From: a virus
IMG/VR virus record: IMGVR_UViG_3300025284_000073
Coordinates: 1-27,159 of that record
DNA: 27,159 bases
Strand: one strand, 5' to 3'
The notes below the pieces were generated by a model. That model saw nothing but the letters and a program-made list of their open reading frames with translations. It was not told the DNA's origin and searched no databases. A program made the translations under genes and the position numbers. This document shows, in pieces, positions 4,669 through 19,032 of the stretch (position 1 is the stretch's first letter; every line of letters starts with the position of its first letter).

Positions 4669-5790
4669 TCAAACCCTCATCGGCATGAGCACGACGAGGA
4701 GCGGGTCGCCCTCGCGGCGCTGGAACAGAGCGGGGGAGCCGGGATCGGCGAGCTTCATCACGACGGTGTCGGAACCGCCGAGCACGCCCAGCACGTCGAG
4801 CAGATAGCGGGCGTTGAAGCCCATATCGATCGGGGTGCCGTCGTATTCGGCTTCGATCTCCTCGCGCGCCTCGCCCGAATCGGGATTGGTGACAGAGAGC
4901 GATAGGCCGGCATCTGTGAGCGAGAGCTTCACCGCCCGGCCGCGCTCGCTGGAGATGGTCGAGACGCGGTCGATGGCCTGCTTGAAGCCGTCCGCCTCGA
5001 GCGTCGCCAGCTTGTCGTTGCCGTGGGGAATGACCCGCTCATAGTCCGGGAAGGTGCCGTCGATCAGCTTCGAGGTCAGCGAGGTCTCAGCCGATGTGAC
5101 GCGGATCTTGGTCGGCGAGAGCTCGATCGTCAGATCGCCCTCGGCATCCTTGGCCATGCGGGCGATCTCACCGACCGCCTTGGTCGGGATGATCACGCCC
5201 GGCATGCCGTCGGTACCGGCCGGCGCCGGCAGTTCCAGCCGCGACAGGCGATGGCCGTCGGTGGCGACGGCGCGCAACACGGGGCCATCCTGCCCGGCGG
5301 TGGCGTGCAGATAGATGCCGTTCAGGTAGTAGCGCGTCTCCTCCGAGGAGATCGCGAAGCTGACCTGGGCGATCAGCTCGCCGATCGTCTTGGCCGGCAT
5401 GGCGAAGCGATGCGGCAGATCGCCGACGGTGATGTCGGGGAAATCGGTCTCCGGCAACGTGTGCATGGTGAAGCGGGAGCGGCCGGACTTGACCGTCATG
5501 CTCGTCGCCTTGGCATCCAGCTCCAGCGTGATCTGGGCCTCGGCCGGCAGCTTGCGGACGATGTCGGCCAGCGTATGTGCCGGTACGGTGATCGCGCCGG
5601 GCGCCGCGACATCGCAGGCGAGCGCGGTCTGCGCCTGGATGTCGAGATCGGTGGCCCGGACGGTGAGGCTGCCGCCTTCCGCCCGCAGCAGGATGTTCGA
5701 CAGCACGGGAATGGTGTTGCGCCGCTCGACCACGCGCGAGAGCGCGGCGAGCGCAGGGCTGAGCGTTTCGCGGGCGATGGTGAGCTTCAC
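4669..5790 (-). CDS. dnaN: DNA polymerase III beta subunit (sliding clamp)
   Basis: A 373-residue beta clamp, which as a ring dimer tethers DNA polymerase to DNA. All three repeated clamp domains are present: the first with RRNTIPVLSNILL and VRATDLDIQAQ, the second with FAISSEETRYYLNGIYLH and RAVATDGHRLSRLEL, and the third ending in LLVVLMPMRV, which matches the C terminus that forms the partner-binding pocket (usually MPMR/L). The length equals that of chromosomal DnaN, so this is not a fragment. GTG at 5790 is chosen because homology begins at KLTIARETLSPAL; the frame is open upstream to 6012 but without similarity. A clamp in a temperate phage is uncommon. It may replace or compete with the host clamp. 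It is followed immediately by the MazG-like gene. Confidence 0.95.
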   Translation of the reverse strand: MKLTIARETLSPALAALSRVVERRNTIPVLSNILLRAEGGSLTVRATDLDIQAQTALACDVAAPGAITVPAHTLADIVRKLPAEAQITLELDAKATSMTVKSGRSRFTMHTLPETDFPDITVGDLPHRFAMPAKTIGELIAQVSFAISSEETRYYLNGIYLHATAGQDGPVLRAVATDGHRLSRLELPAPAGTDGMPGVIIPTKAVGEIARMAKDAEGDLTIELSPTKIRVTSAETSLTSKLIDGTFPDYERVIPHGNDKLATLEADGFKQAIDRVSTISSERGRAVKLSLTDAGLSLSVTNPDSGEAREEIEAEYDGTPIDMGFNARYLLDVLGVLGGSDTVVMKLADPGSPALFQRREGDPLLVVLMPMRV

Positions 5791-5820
5791 GGCGGATGCT
5801 TTCGGGAGGAGAGGGATGGT

Positions 5821-5851
5821 GCGGGCCGGCCGCGGAGCGTCACCGGCCCGC
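5821..5851 (-). promoter_or_regulatory. Stem-loop between the DUF2303 gene and dnaN
   Basis: A perfect 9-bp inverted repeat (GCGGGCCGG and CCGGCCCGC) separated by 13 bases lies in the 104-bp spacer upstream of dnaN, the longest gap in the leftward operon. No T-run follows it in the direction of transcription, so it is not an obvious intrinsic terminator. It could be an attenuator, an RNA-stability element or a processing site that sets the level of dnaN relative to the upstream genes. Confidence 0.35.
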
Positions 5852-5894
5852 TGGGAGCGCCTACCCGGGAGGGAGGCCGACGCTCCGAACGTGA

Positions 5895-6875
5895 TCAGGC
5901 CTCGGGCGAGCCCTCGAAGGTCGGCAGCTCGGTCTTGCTCGCGACGGTGTCGAGGTCGTCCTTGACCTGGGCACGCAGCCAGAACTGCCAGCGATAGAGC
6001 TGGTAGGACCACTGGATCTCGCCGTTCACGATGCGATAGCGCAGGCGGGCCGGGATGCGGACGGTGTCGCCATCGACGAAGGCCGGCACCGACACCATGA
6101 AGATGCCGGGGATCTCGACCTTCTCGCCCTTGCCGTTCATGTGTTCTTCGACGAACTCGACAACGCGTTCGCCGGTCTGCATCCGGACGCCCTGCTTGAC
6201 CTTGGCGTTGACGAAGACTTCGAGGTTGCGCGACAGCGCGATCAGGTCGGCCGGCGTCGCGAAGCGCTCCTTAAAGAGCGTCTCGTATTCCGCGACCTCC
6301 GGTCCGAAGGGCGCAGAGAGCTCGGCTGCGTGGTCCTCGAGGAAGGCGGCGAAGGTCGCCTGATCCATCGCCTTGCCGTTCTTCTCGATCCAGACCTTGA
6401 ACTCGTCCGTGATCGGGAAGGCGTAGCGGATACGGTGGCGGCCCCAGCGGGCGGAGGCCTTCTCGCCGTGATAGTCGATGACGGCGGTCAGCGCCGGCTC
6501 GGGCCAGGCCGTCTTGCCGAACACGGCCGAGTCGTCGTTCTTGTGCCGGTTCACCAGGTCGATGAAGCTCTGCAGCGTCGTCGTCTCCGCCGACCCGTGC
6601 ACTTCGCCCGGCTCGATCCGGTAACGGTCGATGATGTCCTTGAGGCCGTCGATGCGGTTGCCGTCGCGGCGGTCGATAACGATCGGCACCGAGGGCGGCA
6701 GTCCGGCGCCGAGGCCGGTGGTCGGCAGAGAGACGATCTCGACAGCGCTGACCTCGCGGGCCAGCTCGACGATCGCGCTGATGCCGCCGTCGGAGTTCGG
6801 GATCGTGCTGCCGCAGGTATAGGGCGCGGCGATAGCTTCGAGGGTGGCGGCTTCGACCGCCGACTTATTGGCCAT
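5895..6875 (-). CDS. DUF2303 (YfdQ-like) phage protein
   Basis: A 326-residue protein of the DUF2303/YfdQ family, found in many temperate phages next to recombination and replication genes; its biochemical role is unknown to me. Features that fit are the N-terminal SFIDLVNRHKNDDSAVF region, LTAVIDYHGE, the middle segment with FKVWIEKNGKAMDQATFAAF, and the C-terminal beta-rich domain (IPARLRYRIVNGEIQWSYQL). No signal peptide or membrane span is seen. The ATG at 6875 is preceded by AAAGGAG with good spacing. The gene lies between a 113-residue unknown and dnaN in one transcript. Confidence 0.85.
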   Translation of the reverse strand: MANKSAVEAATLEAIAAPYTCGSTIPNSDGGISAIVELAREVSAVEIVSLPTTGLGAGLPPSVPIVIDRRDGNRIDGLKDIIDRYRIEPGEVHGSAETTTLQSFIDLVNRHKNDDSAVFGKTAWPEPALTAVIDYHGEKASARWGRHRIRYAFPITDEFKVWIEKNGKAMDQATFAAFLEDHAAELSAPFGPEVAEYETLFKERFATPADLIALSRNLEVFVNAKVKQGVRMQTGERVVEFVEEHMNGKGEKVEIPGIFMVSVPAFVDGDTVRIPARLRYRIVNGEIQWSYQLYRWQFWLRAQVKDDLDTVASKTELPTFEGSPEA

Positions 6876-13312: not shown

Positions 13313-14208
13313 ATGTGGCTCTACGTCCCCAGCGAGGCCCTGCCGACCGTCTCGACCTCCTCTCCATCTGCACCGGAGGCGGCGGGCTCGATCTCGGCGT
13401 CGGACTGGCGCTTCCCGGCGCTCGCGTCGTCTGCATGGTGGAGAGGGAAGCCTTCGCCGTCGCGCACCTGGTTCAAGCGATGCGAGCGGGTCTCCTTCAT
13501 CCGGCTCCTGTGTGGAGCGATGCCCGAACCTTCGGCGGCCGAGCATGGCGTGGCTGCCTGGACGGCCTCATTGGCGGCATCCCGTGCCAGCCGCACAGCC
13601 TCGCCGGCAAGCGCCTCGCCGAACTCGATGAGCGCGACCTCTGGCCTCCGACCCGGCGCATCATCGCGCAGGCGCGGCCCTGGTTCGTCCTCATCGAGAA
13701 TGTCGGCGGCATGCTCTCATCGGGCGGGGCCGAGCGGGTTTGGCGAGAGCTGGGGCGCCTTGGTTTCAAGCGCGAGGTGGGACTTTTCTCGGCGGAGGAG
13801 GTCGGGTTCCCGCACGCCCGTGAGCGCCTTTTCATACTCGGTGTCAGCGACGCTCTTTCCGACGCCTTCGGCCCGCGATTTCAAGGGCGCGAATTCGGCT
13901 GGCCATCTCGATCGCTCGACCGGGAGTCTGCACCTCGACCAGTTGCCGAACTTCGTTCGACATATTTTCCGCCCGGCCCTCGATCTCTGCCGCAATGGAC
14001 AGAACTCATTGCCTCAGACCCCGGTCTTGAACCCGAGGTTTGTCGAAAGGCTGATGGGATGGCCGCCGCTCTGGACGCTGTCCGAATGCTCGGAAACGGC
14101 GTTGTCCCGCTTCAGGCAGCATATGCGCTGCGCACTCTCGCAACTCGCCTCGCACGACGCGGCTCTGCCGGCGCAGCTCGCCTTGTTCGGATGATGGCCG
14201 ATGCGTAA
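13309..14208 (+). CDS. C5-cytosine DNA methyltransferase
   Basis: A 299-residue C5-MTase that methylates carbon 5 of cytosine through a covalent intermediate. Motif I is CTGGGGLDLG (21-30), the catalytic cysteine is C93 in GGIPCQP (motif IV), motif VI is ENVGG (E130), motif VIII is HARERLF, and motif X is MLGNGVVPLQAAYAL from residue 260. The recognition region between VIII and X is short, about 80 residues. GTG at 13309 overlaps the previous stop as GTGA. The last third is also open in the +1 frame, which encodes a different recognisable phage module (see the entry at 13841). Likely role: anti-restriction or epigenetic control, paired with the amino-methyltransferase upstream. Confidence 0.92.
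   Translation: MNVALRPQRGPADRLDLLSICTGGGGLDLGVGLALPGARVVCMVEREAFAVAHLVQAMRAGLLHPAPVWSDARTFGGRAWRGCLDGLIGGIPCQPHSLAGKRLAELDERDLWPPTRRIIAQARPWFVLIENVGGMLSSGGAERVWRELGRLGFKREVGLFSAEEVGFPHARERLFILGVSDALSDAFGPRFQGREFGWPSRSLDRESAPRPVAELRSTYFPPGPRSLPQWTELIASDPGLEPEVCRKADGMAAALDAVRMLGNGVVPLQAAYALRTLATRLARRGSAGAARLVRMMADA
13841..14194 (+). CDS. Candidate overlapping gene in the +1 frame of the C5-MTase
   Basis: Within the C5-MTase gene, the +1 frame is open from 13313 to 14194 and its last 117 codons read like a real phage protein: TLFPTPSARDFKGANSAGH, then LHLDQLPNFV, then LNPRFVERLMGWPPLWT and ALSRFRQHMRCALSQL. I recall this PTPSARD ... LNPRFVExLMGWP module from proteins and C-terminal segments linked to phage C5-MTases. 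The upstream part of the frame (before about 13840) looks like noise. A GTG at 13841 could start it but has no good ribosome-binding site; initiation at the ATG at 13313 or a +1 frameshift near 13830-13840 are alternatives. The same bases encode motif X in the main frame, so both cannot be dismissed. Product not proven. Confidence 0.4.
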   Translation: MSATLFPTPSARDFKGANSAGHLDRSTGSLHLDQLPNFVRHIFRPALDLCRNGQNSLPQTPVLNPRFVERLMGWPPLWTLSECSETALSRFRQHMRCALSQLASHDAALPAQLALFG

Positions 14209-14212
14209 GCCT

Positions 14213-14434
14213 TCAGATGCGCGCGACCGTGACGTCGACGACGCGGACCGGCAGGCCGGTCTCGCGCGAGAGCAGGGCGCGACCGATCTTGCGGCGCTCT
14301 CCGGTCGCAAAGTTCTCGGCGCCGGCCTGCGAATGGCTGTCGTGCTGGCGCGTCGCGCCGTCGGCGTAATGCGTCGTCACGCGCCATTCGCGGGGCTGGG
14401 CGGCGAGGCCTTCAAGGCGAGCTCGGATGTCCAT
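14213..14434 (-). CDS. Small hypothetical protein downstream of hicB
   Basis: A 73-residue protein starting MDIRARLEGLAAQPREWRVT, with a strong GAGGAGG ribosome-binding site about ten bases before the ATG. The pattern is a short helix, a beta strand with WRVTTHYADG, and a C-terminal strand (GLPVRVVDVTVARI). No family is recognised. It is the third gene of the leftward hicA-hicB transcript, 27 bp after hicB, and ends 4 bp from the convergent C5-MTase stop. It could be a passenger or a partner of the module. Confidence 0.65.
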   Translation of the reverse strand: MDIRARLEGLAAQPREWRVTTHYADGATRQHDSHSQAGAENFATGERRKIGRALLSRETGLPVRVVDVTVARI

Positions 14435-14461
14435 CGTTCAGGCCTCCTCGTTCGGATTGGC

Positions 14462-14890
14462 TCAGAGGAACCGCTTGCTCGCCGCGCTGCCGGCGACCGC
14501 CTCGATATAGGCCGAGCGGGTCACGCCCTTCGCCTTGGCTGCGGCGTCGATCCGATTCAGCACGTCGCGGGCGAGCATGATGTTGACCCGCTCCTTGGGC
14601 GGCTGCGCCTCGATCAGCTGGATCGGAATCGCCTTGGCGCCTTCCTTCTGATCGTCGGTAAAGGCCCGGCTCTCGGTCGCCAAACGAGCGTAGCTGCGCG
14701 GGGGCGGAACCTCGTCGCCGTCAGCCACCATAGCGGCGATGTGACCGGACAAGGCTTCCCTGGCGTTCGCCACAGCCTCCTCGAAGCTTTCTCCAAAGCT
14801 GGTACAACCCGGCAGATCCGGGAAAGTGACGCCCCACGAGCCGCCGGCCTGATGGGGTTCGTGGATCAGCGCGATATAATCCTGGGCCAT
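14462..14890 (-). CDS. hicB: HicB-type antitoxin
   Basis: A 142-residue antitoxin that binds and neutralises the HicA RNase and represses the operon. The N-terminal half is the partial RNase-H-like HicB fold (YIALIHEPHQAGGSWGVTFP and PDLPGCTSFGESFEEAVANA, the hallmark P-D-L-P-G-C-x-S-x-G). The C-terminal 45 residues form a ribbon-helix-helix DNA-binding domain (KERVNIMLARDVLNRIDAAA). The ATG at 14890 follows AGGAG, 24 bp after the hicA stop. The usual order, toxin first, is kept. The two palindromes upstream of hicA are its likely operators. Confidence 0.93.
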   Translation of the reverse strand: MAQDYIALIHEPHQAGGSWGVTFPDLPGCTSFGESFEEAVANAREALSGHIAAMVADGDEVPPPRSYARLATESRAFTDDQKEGAKAIPIQLIEAQPPKERVNIMLARDVLNRIDAAAKAKGVTRSAYIEAVAGSAASKRFL

Positions 14891-14914
14891 CGTGGCTCTC
14901 CTGTGTTGCCGGCC

Positions 14915-15097
14915 TCAGATGAGGCCGGCCTGTTTCCTGACGGACTTCACCGTCTTGGGGTGCATGTCCTTGACCGGATGCGGCACCGTCACCTTCCCCG
15001 GCTTCACCGGGTGCTTGAAGTGATGGTGGCTGCCCGTCACCGAGTGAAGCTGCCAGCCATCCTGCTCCAGCTCCTTGATCAACTCTCGCGACTGCAT
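14915..15097 (-). CDS. hicA: HicA-type mRNA interferase toxin
   Basis: A 60-residue toxin with a double-stranded-RNA-binding-like fold that cleaves mRNA when free of HicB. It opens with SRELIKELEQDGWQL, followed by the conserved catalytic histidine loop GSHHHFKHP (H24), then VTVPHPVKDMHPKTVKSV, all in family order and at full length. A GGGAG ribosome-binding site precedes the ATG. The toxin has every expected residue and looks functional. As a prophage module it may stabilise the lysogen or act against superinfecting phages. Confidence 0.92.
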   Translation of the reverse strand: MQSRELIKELEQDGWQLHSVTGSHHHFKHPVKPGKVTVPHPVKDMHPKTVKSVRKQAGLI

Positions 15098-15114
15098 GTT
15101 ATCCGCTCCCGTTC

Positions 15115-15180
15115 AGTGTGTAAACTTTACACACTTGAACGCGCGACGTCAAGCGGATCGTGTGTAAAAATTACACACGA
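15115..15180 (-). promoter_or_regulatory. hicAB promoter with twin palindromic operators
   Basis: Two near-identical palindromes lie upstream of hicA: AGTGTGTAAA-C-TTTACACACT (15115-15135) and TCGTGTGTAA-AAA-TTACACACGA (15158-15180), both with perfect 10-bp arms and centres 44 bp apart, about four helical turns. On the minus strand, TTGACG (15147-15152) and TAAAGT (15124-15129), 17 bp apart, form a promoter whose -10 is inside the first palindrome. They are the likely HicB/HicAB binding sites. The second one also lies 34 bp before the divergent primase gene and might affect it. Confidence 0.75.
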
Positions 15181-15213
15181 TACTAGTGGCAAGCCGTTCG
15201 AAAGGGGGCTGGC

Positions 15214-16272
15214 ATGACAATGCTCGACCACGCGCTCGACCATGCCGCTCGCGGCTTCCGGGTTTTCCCTTGCAAGGCGGCCGCCGATAAAAAGGCGGGA
15301 TCGAAAGCGCCGCACCTGCCCGGCGAAAGCGAGCCCGGCAAGCATGATGGTGGGCACTGGCTTGCCTCGCGCGAGCCGGCGCAGATTCGCGACTGGTGGC
15401 GTCGCTGGCCCGATGCCCTGATCGGCTTCCCGACCGGGCTGCGCTCGGCCTGCGTCGTCGTCGATCTCGACCCGAAGGAGCATCCGGCGCAGGCGATGTT
15501 GGCGGCGCTGCACGACTGGTGCGGCGGCCTTGCCCATGTCGACCAGGTCACCGGGGAGGTGCTGGAGCCGGCGATCTCGCGAACGCAGTCGGGCGGGCTG
15601 CATCTCTGGTTCGCCTGGCCCGACGCGGCGGTTCTGGCAGAGGTCTCCATGCGGCTCGCCCGGATGGGGCAGGGCTTCGAGGGCGTGATCGGCAACCGGG
15701 CCGGGCTGTTCCGCGCCTTCCTGAAGGCGGGCGAATGCCCGGCCGAGCTGGCGCATATCGATGTGCGCGGCGAGGGCGGCTATGTGATCGCCCCGCCCTC
15801 CATCATGTCGGACGGCAAGGCCTATGAGTGGCTGATCGCGCGGGGCGATACCCTGCCGCCGCTGCCGCGCCGGCTGCGCGGCGTTATCACCGGCGAGTTC
15901 ATTCCCGATGCAGAAGTGAGGGCGCGGCGCGAAGCGGCCCGCACGGCGCGGCGCTTCTCGGCGCGGGACATCAGCGACGATCGCGTCCGGAACTATGTCG
16001 ACCACGCGGTTCGGGGCGCGCTGGCGACGGCGCAGCGCGCCGGCGACGGCAATCGCAACGCCGCCGTGTTCTGGGCCGCCTGCCGGCTCGGCGAATTCGT
16101 GCGCGGTGGCCAGATGGCGATGGCCGAGGCCGAGAGCCTGCTGCTCGGCAATCTGCCGGCCGGCGTCTCGCCGACCGAGCCGAAGATCCGCGGCACGATC
16201 AAATCGGGCCTGACCAATCAGAAGACGCCGGCCTTCGACCCGGCGAGCCTGCAAGCGGGGCGCGCAGCGTGA
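15214..16272 (+). CDS. Bifunctional primase-polymerase (Prim-Pol, archaeo-eukaryotic type)
   Basis: A 352-residue primase-polymerase that makes primers for phage DNA replication. The N-terminal domain begins ALDHAARGFRVFPCKA and has the metal-binding pair DLD (D84, D86) in VVVDLDPKE, then SGGLHLWF (126-133) with the conserved histidine H130, then a long beta-rich part (RGEGGYVIAPPSIMSDG), all in the order of the AEP Prim-Pol family. The C-terminal 120 residues are a helical domain (NYVDHAVRGALATAQRAGDG, then NRNAAVFWAACRLGE) common in such phage primases. The ATG at 15214 has AAGGGGG upstream. The stop overlaps the helicase start as GTGA, so primase and helicase are made together. Confidence 0.92.
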   Translation: MTMLDHALDHAARGFRVFPCKAAADKKAGSKAPHLPGESEPGKHDGGHWLASREPAQIRDWWRRWPDALIGFPTGLRSACVVVDLDPKEHPAQAMLAALHDWCGGLAHVDQVTGEVLEPAISRTQSGGLHLWFAWPDAAVLAEVSMRLARMGQGFEGVIGNRAGLFRAFLKAGECPAELAHIDVRGEGGYVIAPPSIMSDGKAYEWLIARGDTLPPLPRRLRGVITGEFIPDAEVRARREAARTARRFSARDISDDRVRNYVDHAVRGALATAQRAGDGNRNAAVFWAACRLGEFVRGGQMAMAEAESLLLGNLPAGVSPTEPKIRGTIKSGLTNQKTPAFDPASLQAGRAA

Positions 16273-17999
16273 GCGACCAAAGCGATTCCGATCTCTCGGC
16301 CGAAACCCTGCGCGCGATCATGAGCCGTCCGGTGGCAGAGCCCTTGCCCGACCCCGCAACCCCTTTCGAGGCCGAGGAGGATGGCGACGGTCCATCCGAC
16401 ATGCCTGTCGACGCCGACATCTCGGCCGTCGAGGAGTGCGCGTCCCTCGACCATTCCGACACCGATAATGGCCGCCGGCTGCTGCGCCATCGCGGCGCCG
16501 ATCTCGCCCGCATGCAGGAGACCGGCTCCGACAAAGCGACCTGGGCGGCCTGGGACGGCAAATTCTGGGATGTCTCGGATGGCGCCTTCCAGGCGCTGGC
16601 GATCGCCCAGACGATCGGCGGGCTGATCGGCCTCGAGGCGGATTTCCTCGGTCACACGCCGCCGGAGAACGCCGCGATCCGCAAGGCGGCGCGCGAGCTC
16701 GACAACAAGGACGCGCAAGCGGCCAAGGACGCCGCGATCGCGGCGCTGGAGAAACGGCAGGGCAAGCGGCGGGCCTTCGGCGTCTCCTCGAAGAACTCGG
16801 CCCGGCTCAACGCCATGCTGGCCTGCGCTGCGCCGCATTGCGCCGTAAAGCCGGAGGAGTGGAACGCTGCGCAGCGCCTGCTCTATGTCGAGAACGGCAC
16901 GCTGCGCTTCATCCGCGAGGAAGACCCCGACCGCTCCGGCGAGCAGGCGGCCTTCAAGGGGCATGTCGAATTTACGCCGGAGGGCTGGCGGCGCGACGAC
17001 CGCGTCACGCGGCTGATGCCGGTGGCCTATGACCCGAAGGCGCAGTGCCCAAAATTCCGGGACTTCGTCGCGCGCTTCCTGCCCGAGGCGCTGGTGCCCG
17101 GCGTGGCGCGGGCGGTGCAGATCTTCTGCGGGCTCGGGTTGACCGGCATTCCGGTGCAGCTGCTGTTCTTCCATTACGGGCTCGGCGCCAACGGCAAATC
17201 GGTCTTCCTCGAAGTGCTGGCCCGCGTCTATGGCGCGCTCGGCGAGGGCCTGCCGGCGGAATCGATCACCGGGCAGGCACAGGGCGCCGCCGGCGGAGCT
17301 TCGCCCGACCTGGCGCGGCTGCCGGGTGTGCGCTTCCTGCGCATCACCGAATTGCCGCAGGGCGAGCCCTTGCGCGAGGCCCTGGTCAAGCGATTGACCG
17401 GCGGCGAGAAAATGGACGTGCGCACCCTGTTCAAGGGCTATTTCGCCTTCCAGCCGCAGTTCAAGGCCCATATGTCGGGCAACGGCTATCCGAGCATCAT
17501 GGGCTCGGATAACGGCATCTGGCGGCGCATGGCCGTGGTGCCGTGGAAGGTCACGATCCCGCCCGACGAGCAGCGCGACTTCGAGGAGGTCGTGACCGAG
17601 CTCGTCGCCGAGGCGCCCGGCATCCTCAACTGGCTGATCGAGGGCATGCTGGCCTTCGACGGCGAGGGGCTGAAGCTGCCGCCGGCGATGGTCGACGCGG
17701 CCAAGGACTATCGCGACGAGATGGACCCGATCTCGGTGTTCATCGACCGCTGCGTCCGGCTCAACCCCGAGGCCGAGCCGGTGCGGGCCAGGCACGCCTA
17801 TGAGTGCTATTCGATCTGGTCCGACGAGAACGGGCGAAAGCCGCTCTCGGAGACGCGCTTCGGCCGCGTCATGGGCCAGCGCTTCGAGCGGCGCGAGGTC
17901 TCCTCGGCAAACATGTATTTCGGCATCGAGCTGCACGACATCCCGCCGCGCTCGGCCCGGCCCCGCAACCCCGATGAGCCGGGTTCGGACCGCCCATGA
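16269..17999 (+). CDS. Superfamily 3 replicative helicase (phage/plasmid primase P4 family)
   Basis: A 576-residue protein of the P4-alpha/D5 type that unwinds DNA at the replication fork. A variable acidic N terminus precedes the D5-N-like domain (about 130-250, SKNSARLNAMLACAAPHCAV and AAQRLLYVENGTLRF). The SF3 ATPase core has Walker A GLGANGKS (304-311), the acidic motif B ending in RITE (E361) and motif C around MSGNGYPSI (402 onward), followed by the arginine of NGIWRRMAVVPW. The C terminus is a winged-helix-like region (SIWSDENGRKPLSETRFGRV) that could bind DNA. GTG at 16269 is the start. The repeat-rich region right after its stop is a plausible target. Confidence 0.92.
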   Translation: MSDQSDSDLSAETLRAIMSRPVAEPLPDPATPFEAEEDGDGPSDMPVDADISAVEECASLDHSDTDNGRRLLRHRGADLARMQETGSDKATWAAWDGKFWDVSDGAFQALAIAQTIGGLIGLEADFLGHTPPENAAIRKAARELDNKDAQAAKDAAIAALEKRQGKRRAFGVSSKNSARLNAMLACAAPHCAVKPEEWNAAQRLLYVENGTLRFIREEDPDRSGEQAAFKGHVEFTPEGWRRDDRVTRLMPVAYDPKAQCPKFRDFVARFLPEALVPGVARAVQIFCGLGLTGIPVQLLFFHYGLGANGKSVFLEVLARVYGALGEGLPAESITGQAQGAAGGASPDLARLPGVRFLRITELPQGEPLREALVKRLTGGEKMDVRTLFKGYFAFQPQFKAHMSGNGYPSIMGSDNGIWRRMAVVPWKVTIPPDEQRDFEEVVTELVAEAPGILNWLIEGMLAFDGEGLKLPPAMVDAAKDYRDEMDPISVFIDRCVRLNPEAEPVRARHAYECYSIWSDENGRKPLSETRFGRVMGQRFERREVSSANMYFGIELHDIPPRSARPRNPDEPGSDRP

Positions 18000-18299
18000 C
18001 CCTCCATTCGCCTGAAATCATGGAGGGTTGTGGAGGGTTCATGGACGGTTTCTGCCGACCCTCCATCACGATTTTCGCTTTCGCCTCAAGGGCATGGCGA
18101 GCGCGATGGAGGGTCTGGAGGGTTATTCCCGCCTGTATGCATGAGAAACGGGGTTCGGGGTTTGGCGATTTTCTCCATGCGTCTAGACCTCTCAAACCCT
18201 CCATACCCTCCATCTTGTTCGCTATTGCTTTGATATCGCTTGGTTATTTCCGATGGATGGTTTCTCAGAACTATCCATCAACCCTCCATAACCCTCCAT
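17999..18299. repeat. Cluster of 13 iterons (ATGGAGGGT), candidate replication origin
   Basis: This 320-bp gap between helicase and the next gene carries thirteen copies of ATGGAGGGT or its complement ACCCTCCAT. Forward copies: 18020, 18030, 18106, 18115, with variants at 18041 and 18253. Reverse copies: 17999, 18058, 18196, 18205, 18281, 18291, with a variant at 18270. Several are in tandem at 9-10 bp spacing, about one helical turn. A less GC-rich stretch (18214-18255) lies between the groups. Open frames here only translate the repeats. Iterons next to a primase-helicase recall the ori and crr iterons bound by P4 alpha protein, so a replication origin is the best guess; regulation of the replication genes is the alternative. 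Confidence 0.7.
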
Positions 18300-18318
18300 T
18301 GCCGGGAAAGGGCTGATC

Positions 18319-19032
18319 ATGTCGGCGAAAGAGACGATCGAGATCGAGGCGCTGCTGCAACGGGCCTATGGCCAGTACCGGGTGCACAAGGTCAGCCCGG
18401 CGACCGTGCTCGGCATCTCGCCGCTAGCGGCCTCGCCGTCAGGCTTCGCTGCGACGATGGCGATCCTGCAGCTTGGCACGCGGGTCGATACCAGCGGGGC
18501 AGGGGCGAAGATGGCTGGCCTGCAGAGCATGGCGGCGGCGACGCCAGACGACCTGCTCGTCGTCCATGACCATGTGCTGGCGCTGTCGGACTGGCTGATC
18601 GAGGGCGCGGACACCGCCGAGCCGACCGTCTGGCGGCGCGAGGAGATCACGGCGAATGGCTGGCGCGTTGAAAAGCAGGCTGATGCGCTCTGGCTGGCGC
18701 GGCCTTCCGGCCCGGCGGGGGCAGGGCGGGGCCATCTCTCGCGGCTGACCGACCCGCATCTTGCGGCGAGCGTGATCCTGCATGCCGCCAATGGCTCGCG
18801 GCCGGAGTGCCGGCCTGCACGGCGGGGTCGGCTCTCGGCTGCGGAAGAGGCTGAGGTGCGGATTGAGCGTTCGCTTTATGCCGTTTGGCATGCGGCGCTG
18901 GGCGTGCTGGCGACGGAGCTGGATAGCGTGCTCGTCAAGCACGCCGTGCTGCCCCCTTCCGCCCCTGCAGAGCCCTGGCTGCGTCGGCCGCTGCGCGATG
19001 TCCCTGCCGAGGAGGCGCTTTCTGCGGTGTAA
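18319..19032 (+). CDS. Hypothetical phage protein between replication and packaging genes
   Basis: A 237-residue protein beginning MSAKETIEIEALLQRAYGQY. The N-terminal 90 residues are mixed helix (SGAGAKMAGLQSMAAATPDD), the middle holds VVHDHVLALSDWLIEGADTA and the basic stretch near 150, and the C terminus is helical (EVRIERSLYAVWHAALGVLA). No motif is recognised. The ATG at 18319 stands alone after the iteron region and about 300 bp before the small terminase gene. Its position is that of late-gene regulators in lambdoid phages, but no antiterminator or sigma-like motif is visible, so function remains unknown. Confidence 0.75.
   Translation: MSAKETIEIEALLQRAYGQYRVHKVSPATVLGISPLAASPSGFAATMAILQLGTRVDTSGAGAKMAGLQSMAAATPDDLLVVHDHVLALSDWLIEGADTAEPTVWRREEITANGWRVEKQADALWLARPSGPAGAGRGHLSRLTDPHLAASVILHAANGSRPECRPARRGRLSAAEEAEVRIERSLYAVWHAALGVLATELDSVLVKHAVLPPSAPAEPWLRRPLRDVPAEEALSAV

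Follow-up and report, generated by a model that had tools for sequence, protein, structure and literature searches.

The replication genes and the downstream repeat array

We analysed a linear viral contig of 27,159 bases, referred to here as the window, which is a temperate siphophage-type genome from a phage of soil bacteria. The genes of interest follow the order Prim-Pol, SF3 helicase, repeat array, 237-aa protein, small terminase, large terminase and portal. The features discussed first are the following:

15214-16272, + strand: Prim-Pol (AEP primase-polymerase), PF09250, E=2.3e-31
15828-17999, + strand: ORF of the SF3 (D5/P4-type) helicase, with matches to PF08706, PF03288 and TIGR01613
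17733-17942, + strand: C-terminal winged helix of the helicase (ORF residues 636-705), the proposed reader of the iterons
17999-18299, no strand: iteron array, proposed replication origin, identified by repeat counts and conserved in relatives
18319-19032, + strand: conserved 237-aa protein directly after the array, phrog_9306, no fold match

The helicase ORF has 723 aa as listed, although its conserved part begins only at about 16260 and the listed start may not be the true one. With the D5_N domain and the SF3 core both above the curated cut-offs (PF08706, 38.7 bits against 22.4; TIGR01613, 185.6 against 108.7), it belongs to the D5/P4-type SF3 primase-helicases, and PF03288 matched residues 631-687. 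By analogy with such enzymes, the protein would act as a hexameric 3'-5' helicase. Its AlphaFold2 model had a mean pLDDT of 90 and showed the helix-helix-hairpin arrangement of a winged helix at model residues 510-558, mostly with pLDDT >94; residue 675 is the first residue of the recognition helix in the model and residues 693-694 lie at the wing tip (692-694). The closest solved structure in VIA-align was the SaPI5 primase-helicase (Z 28.0), with 7om0 aligned through model residue 568, and the next matches were vaccinia D5, mpox E5 and ASFV PrimPol.

The array begins at the final base of the helicase stop codon (17999). Exact copies of the 9-mer ATGGAGGGT occur eight times in the 27-kb window, all of them inside 17999-18299, whereas 0.08 were expected, and none of 100 dinucleotide shuffles of the window reached this count. 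Four more copies carry one mismatch (at 18030, 18041, 18115 and 18253) and another one carries two. Thus, the 13 sites reported in the initial annotation of this DNA are found if degenerate copies are counted, but only 8 of them are exact; that annotation was also correct in giving two orientations, a spacing of about one helical turn and these coordinates. It had also described a less GC-rich stretch, and indeed the GC content drops from 67% for the window to 52% for the array, whose inner parts have 41-53%. The individual iterons are:

17999-18007, - strand: extra iteron, exact (exact-copy search), outside the dyad
18020-18029, + strand: left outer iteron 1, exact; mirror partner 18290-18299
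18030-18039, + strand: left outer iteron 2, GTGGAGGGTT; mirror partner 18280-18289
18041-18050, + strand: left outer iteron 3, ATGGACGGTT; mirror partner 18269-18278
18057-18066, - strand: left outer iteron 4, inverted; mirror partner 18253-18262
18106-18115, + strand: left inner iteron 1; mirror partner 18204-18213
18115-18124, + strand: left inner iteron 2, CTGGAGGGTT; mirror partner 18195-18204
18195-18204, - strand: right inner iteron 1, by sequence and geometry
18204-18213, - strand: right inner iteron 2, by sequence and geometry
18253-18262, + strand: right outer iteron, inverted, ATGGATGGTT, by sequence and geometry
18269-18278, - strand: right outer iteron with two mismatches, AACTATCCAT (the 9-mer at 18270-18278 is ATGGATAGT)
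18280-18289, - strand: right outer iteron, exact (exact-copy search)
18290-18299, - strand: right outer iteron, exact (exact-copy search)

For the geometry, the sites were written as the 10-mer ATGGAGGGTT. The left sites start at 18020, 18030, 18041, 18057 (inverted), 18106 and 18115, while the right sites end at 18299, 18289, 18278, 18262 (inverted), 18213 and 18204. Since the coordinates of each of these six pairs sum to 36319, the 12 sites form a base-perfect dyad about 18159.5, with six sites per half in a (4+2)|70-nt centre|(2+4) layout and identical outer offsets of 86, 76, 65 and 50 on both sides. The thirteenth copy, at 17999, lies outside the dyad, and the sequence between the sites is not palindromic. 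This exact mirror symmetry was not part of the initial annotation and emerged in the follow-up. No report of the 6+6 geometry was found in the literature searched, which left out most subscription journals.

An open frame of 106 aa (17996-18316) crosses the array in the window, which would suit a short coding gene; alternatively, the repeats could be a chance product of GC-rich DNA. The frame is lost in close relatives: it is shifted by 1 nt in L004, which reads a different frame, and stops after 58 codons in L005 and after 79 codons in L007. No conserved gene across the repeats was found in the relatives, as anticipated by the initial annotation, which saw no convincing gene there. Chance explains neither the shuffling result nor the base-perfect dyad and its conservation, and we give practically no credence to a coding or chance origin of the array. 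The array had no match in Rfam, no DNA-level relatives among named phages and plasmids, and no defence family matched in PADLOC.

Conservation of the array among relatives

Relatives were gathered by helicase searches and came from both viral contigs and named genomes. Nearly all named genomes with the helicase belong to Hyphomicrobiales (Bosea, Methylobacterium, Microvirga, Brucella, Mesorhizobium, Rhizobium and others), and the relatives sharing the helicase are mostly Hyphomicrobiales prophages. Within 450 bases downstream of the helicase stop, a single short repeat is present 6-13 times in most of them, compared with 2-5 times in shuffled sequence. The same 9-mer had been expected beside the same helicase in related prophages, and absence of the pattern there was to count against an origin; the array was present in most of the relatives, but the sequence of the 9-mer changes. 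The iterons include ATGGAGGGTT, GTGGAGGGTT, ATGCAGGGTT, TGCGAGGGTT, GCGGAGGGTT, TGCGATAGTT, TGCGACAGTT, TTGCACCAGTT, TCTGACAGTT and more. They can be divided into a 5' half-site, which is variable, and a 3' half-site, which is GGGTT, TAGTT, CAGTT or CACTT. The iteron register was curated by eye for each locus and then checked by site counts; some registers are weak, with few exact copies (L033 and L092 among them). In the distant helicase relatives L014, L015, L016, L017, L132 and L134, the repeats are weaker or displaced.

The layout is conserved together with the position. The inner frame, at which two forward sites and two reverse sites are separated by 59-90 nt, is present in 44 of 64 loci, the other 20 falling outside it under the search rules used. 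The outer offsets of 86, 76, 65 and 50 per side are common to the window, L003, L004, L020 and L059, and they recur within about 2 nt in L005, L027, L067, L071, L074 and L126, though the iterons differ. Mirror partners within 1 nt were found for 88 of 169 left outer sites, against 15.7 +- 3.7 when right positions were random. The median over all loci is six sites per half, with some halves of 4, 5 or 7, and the Rhizobium/Brucella group has a second layout in which every outer site points inward.

The linkage was also recovered in the opposite direction. Scanning 2.9 million viral contigs with patterns of tandem iterons only gave 63 loci, of which 54 had an SF3 helicase and 53 had the array <=600 nt downstream of the helicase end; the remaining loci were mostly cut by the contig end. 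One of the recovered loci, on a low-GC contig (L010), has a primase-helicase fusion ending 25 nt from the array. Across the whole genome of Bosea sp. LC85 (6.6 Mb), the tandem iteron pair occurs at the prophage array only.

As the genes for TerS and TerL, of the lambda type, lie 1.0-1.3 kb downstream of the array, we considered whether the repeats are instead a packaging site (cosB/pac-like) read by the small terminase. The cosB site of lambda does contain repeated TerS sites. Among the relatives, however, the repeats do not track the terminase type as lambda-type cosB repeats should: the array keeps its place beside the helicase in loci whose TerL is undetectable or has anything from 26% to 66% identity, and its distance from TerL reaches about 2.7 kb. 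Given also that the iteron follows the helicase C-terminus and that the iteron-found loci have the helicase in common, we regard a packaging site as very unlikely.

Covariation of the iterons with the helicase C-terminus

The initial annotation named either the helicase or the 237-aa downstream protein as the possible binder of the iterons. To follow the changes of the iteron sequence, mutual information was calculated for 493 helicase columns over 64 non-redundant loci. With each of the sequence weightings tried, residue 675 came first of the 493 for the two leading bases of the 3' half-site; residue 693, at the wing tip, had the top rank for two bases of the 5' half-site. Where the 3' half-site begins with GG, residue 675 is E (18) or Q (9); with TA or CA it is L, V, N, W or R and never E or Q, the E/Q class having been defined after looking at the data. 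The covarying residues sit at the start of the recognition helix and at the wing tip of a confidently predicted model, which are the usual contact places of winged helices.

Because kinship inflates covariation scores, a tree was built from the ATPase part alone, on which the GG/non-GG state changes five times (4-5 independent iteron switches). The class of residue 675 follows the iteron in an average of 3.6 of 4 independent supported pairs and never goes in the opposite direction, though with just four pairs a sign test cannot reach 0.05. Permutation within clusters was unusable as a phylogenetic control, since single linkage put 60 of the 64 rows in one cluster. In partial Mantel tests, the helicase C-terminal domain correlated with the iteron at 0.117 (6 of 1000 permutations as high).

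Two natural cases are more telling than the tree pairs. Locus L100 has an ATPase part that falls in the TAGTT clade, yet it has E675 and GGGTT iterons; it is a natural recombinant, joining the ATPase part of one clade to the winged helix and iterons of another. The ATPase parts of loci L025 and L072 share 92% identity, and position 694 (A/I) is the sole difference between the two helicases within residues 668-700; their iterons, however, are TTGCACCAGTT and TGCGATAGTT, respectively. In addition, a partly held-out set was assembled from helicases found by GCGAGGGTT iterons alone, non-redundant and with C-termini <80% identical to earlier rows. E or Q stood at 675 in 19 of its 27 rows, against 45% in all rows, indicating a tendency rather than a rule; the other residues were 4 M, 2 N, 1 A and 1 L. 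Helicase-iteron covariation has not been reported in the literature searched, most subscription journals being outside that search.

If the 237-aa protein bound the array as a regulator or initiator, the helicase would be a mere neighbour. In 68 of the 90 helicase loci, the array is followed by a relative of this protein, and the array, which lies in the interval between the two genes in nearly all relatives, tends to keep to the 237-aa side rather than the helicase side where a gene has been inserted: in L021, L065, L096, L102, L108, L109, L121 and L130 it is displaced further on, before the 237-aa gene. Some columns of the protein also have high mutual information with the iteron. On the other hand, the joint ranking of columns is topped by helicase columns, and the partial correlation of the 237-aa protein with the iteron vanishes once helicase distances are controlled (0.013; 399 of 1000). 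Of the 41 iteron-found loci that could accommodate the protein, 11 have no recognisable copy, the low-GC contig being one of them, and the predicted fold of the protein (pLDDT 84) matched nothing in PDB or BFVD, which leaves a DNA-binding fold unsupported; the lack of matches in these two collections does not make the fold novel. We consider binding by the 237-aa protein unlikely, and of the two candidates first named, we favour the helicase, whose C-terminal winged helix probably reads the iterons, judging from the covariation and the structural model.

The centre of the array

Two features were delimited between the inner iterons:

18125-18194, no strand: 70-nt centre, 53% GC, likely place of opening, by geometry and GC
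18150-18160, + strand: GGGGTTCGGGG, the G tract in the centre, conserved and strand-specific

Of 33 centres, 23 contain a GGGG-N3-GGGG tract, compared with 4.6 expected; the tract lies on the helicase-coding strand in every case and never on the other. A similar one is visible in cyanophage Pan4 (L018). The conserved tract makes the centre asymmetric, and it may be the signal for a strand-specific start.

We considered whether a strand-specific or hairpin element in the centre opens the origin, with the iterons only regulating it. Apart from the G tract, this is favoured by the proposal of a stem-loop downstream of the replication gene as the origin in pRN1 and phage BIP-1 (PMC4234260); when the BIP-1 stem-loop origin was re-read for hidden iterons, none was found. 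The 33 centres examined here have no general folding signal (mean z -0.39), which speaks against a hairpin or cruciform as a general feature, and no large conserved stem-loop of the pRN1 type was found in them. A strong inverted repeat is limited to one clade (L030/L031/L084/L124), and the iteron geometry is far better conserved than the centre. Opening by such an element, in place of the iterons, is therefore unlikely.

Comparison with known replication systems

The initial annotation compared the locus with phage P4, whose alpha protein is an SF3 helicase with a C-terminal origin-binding domain and which has iterons at ori and crr. The comparison is apt, and the helicase matches the P4-family model TIGR01613, but P4 is not the closest system, the SaPI5 primase-helicase being the best structural match. 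In P4, primase and helicase are fused in alpha and two separated sites are required, whereas only one array was seen in this 27-kb contig; all 8 exact iterons are in one cluster, the contig being linear and possibly incomplete.

The annotation of Lactobacillus casei phage A2 places a rep_origin immediately behind the homologous primase/helicase gene. As in the window, the repeats converge on a centre, which is AT-rich in A2 (L012, 4317-4826). The A2 iteron, however, is ACGGGAGGAT and has about 8 sites, the primase is fused to the helicase, and the host is Gram-positive. Cyanophage Pan4 has a convergent repeat layout like that of A2 after its helicase (L018, after 4812), with different repeats.

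SaPI origins are reported to lie directly downstream of the helicase gene and to be made of short iterons (PMC7581432, citing Ubeda 2007). The SaPI replicon (SaPI5, PDB 7OLA/7OM0) has a D5-type SF3 helicase with a C-terminal winged helix, as here, and its short iterons are reported to have the same position as ours. Short iterons within a few hundred bases after the helicase stop were found in the window and in the relatives, and in the window two oppositely oriented iteron sets flank a less GC-rich centre, both as in the SaPI type. In contrast, the Prim-Pol of the window has its own gene, the iteron sequences are different, and the array belongs to a tailed phage rather than to a satellite; six sites per half were measured in this family and not in a SaPI. 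The D5-type helicase of SCCmec Cch2 binds, through its C-terminal domain, repeats just downstream of its gene (PMC7581432), but it has only three short iterons and its primase is a different enzyme pair.

A 302-bp noncoding element (PER) acts as the origin of Streptococcus thermophilus phage Sfi21 (PMC6356513, citing Foley 1998). Like our array, it is a short noncoding element of the replication module, the likeness being one of description and not of sequence. PER is known to confer phage resistance when cloned. The Sulfolobus plasmid pRN1 and Bordetella phage BIP-1 share with the window the Prim-Pol, the SF3 helicase, the winged helix and a downstream origin (PMC4234260), but there the origin is a stem-loop and no iterons are present.

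With counterparts in SaPI, phage A2 and Sfi21, this kind of system is already known, and what is added here is the 6+6 layout and the specificity covariation.

Proposed mechanism of origin recognition

The proposal that the array is the phage replication origin, already made in the initial annotation, is supported by its position, dyad symmetry, lower GC and conservation, and by the rep_origin annotated at the same place in phage A2. The best reading is a self-loading-helicase origin of the SaPI/P4/D5 kind. Taken as a whole, we think it very probable that the array is an origin bound by the winged helix of the SF3 helicase, with a twelve-site dyad serving two rings.

On each side, six iterons would be bound by the winged helices of helicase monomers. 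Residue 675, at the N-terminal end of the recognition helix, would read the 3' half-site (GGGTT), while residues 693-695, at the wing tip, would read the 5' half-site. Two oppositely facing helicase rings may then assemble, one on either side of the 70-nt centre, which would be opened; the adjacent Prim-Pol would prime, and replication would depart in both directions. Since there are six sites per half in opposite orientation, perhaps each subunit of a double hexamer takes one iteron. The inverted fourth site and the bare stretch of 40 nt between the outer and inner sites suggest a bent or wrapped complex.

A more far-reaching idea, which we put forward tentatively and which may well prove too simple, is that the family embodies a specificity code. 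Changing one or two residues, located where the recognition helix begins and at the wing tip, would retarget the helicase to a new iteron, while the 6+6 layout stays rigid, with one iteron per subunit and two opposed hexamers.

How D5-type ring helicases of SaPIs, phages and their poxvirus relatives choose an origin and load onto it is only partly known. The family provides dozens of natural helicase-origin pairs at which the site sequence has changed and the layout has been kept. The near-isogenic pair L025/L072 and the recombinant L100 make the specificity residues testable, as well as the match of six sites per half to one per subunit. A mirror array after the helicase stop codon could also serve as a rule for locating phage origins.

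Other genes in the window

A gene for a HicB-like antitoxin (14462-14890, - strand; PF15919, E=1.9e-28) was identified, with a HicA-like ORF just upstream on the minus strand, and the pair is inserted between the methyltransferase and Prim-Pol genes. The 338-aa plus-strand ORF at 14201-15217 is the antisense of the HicB-like region. The window also encodes a DNA polymerase III beta clamp (4669-6012, - strand) with all three Pfam domains; to our knowledge, it is uncommon for phages of such size to have a beta clamp of their own.
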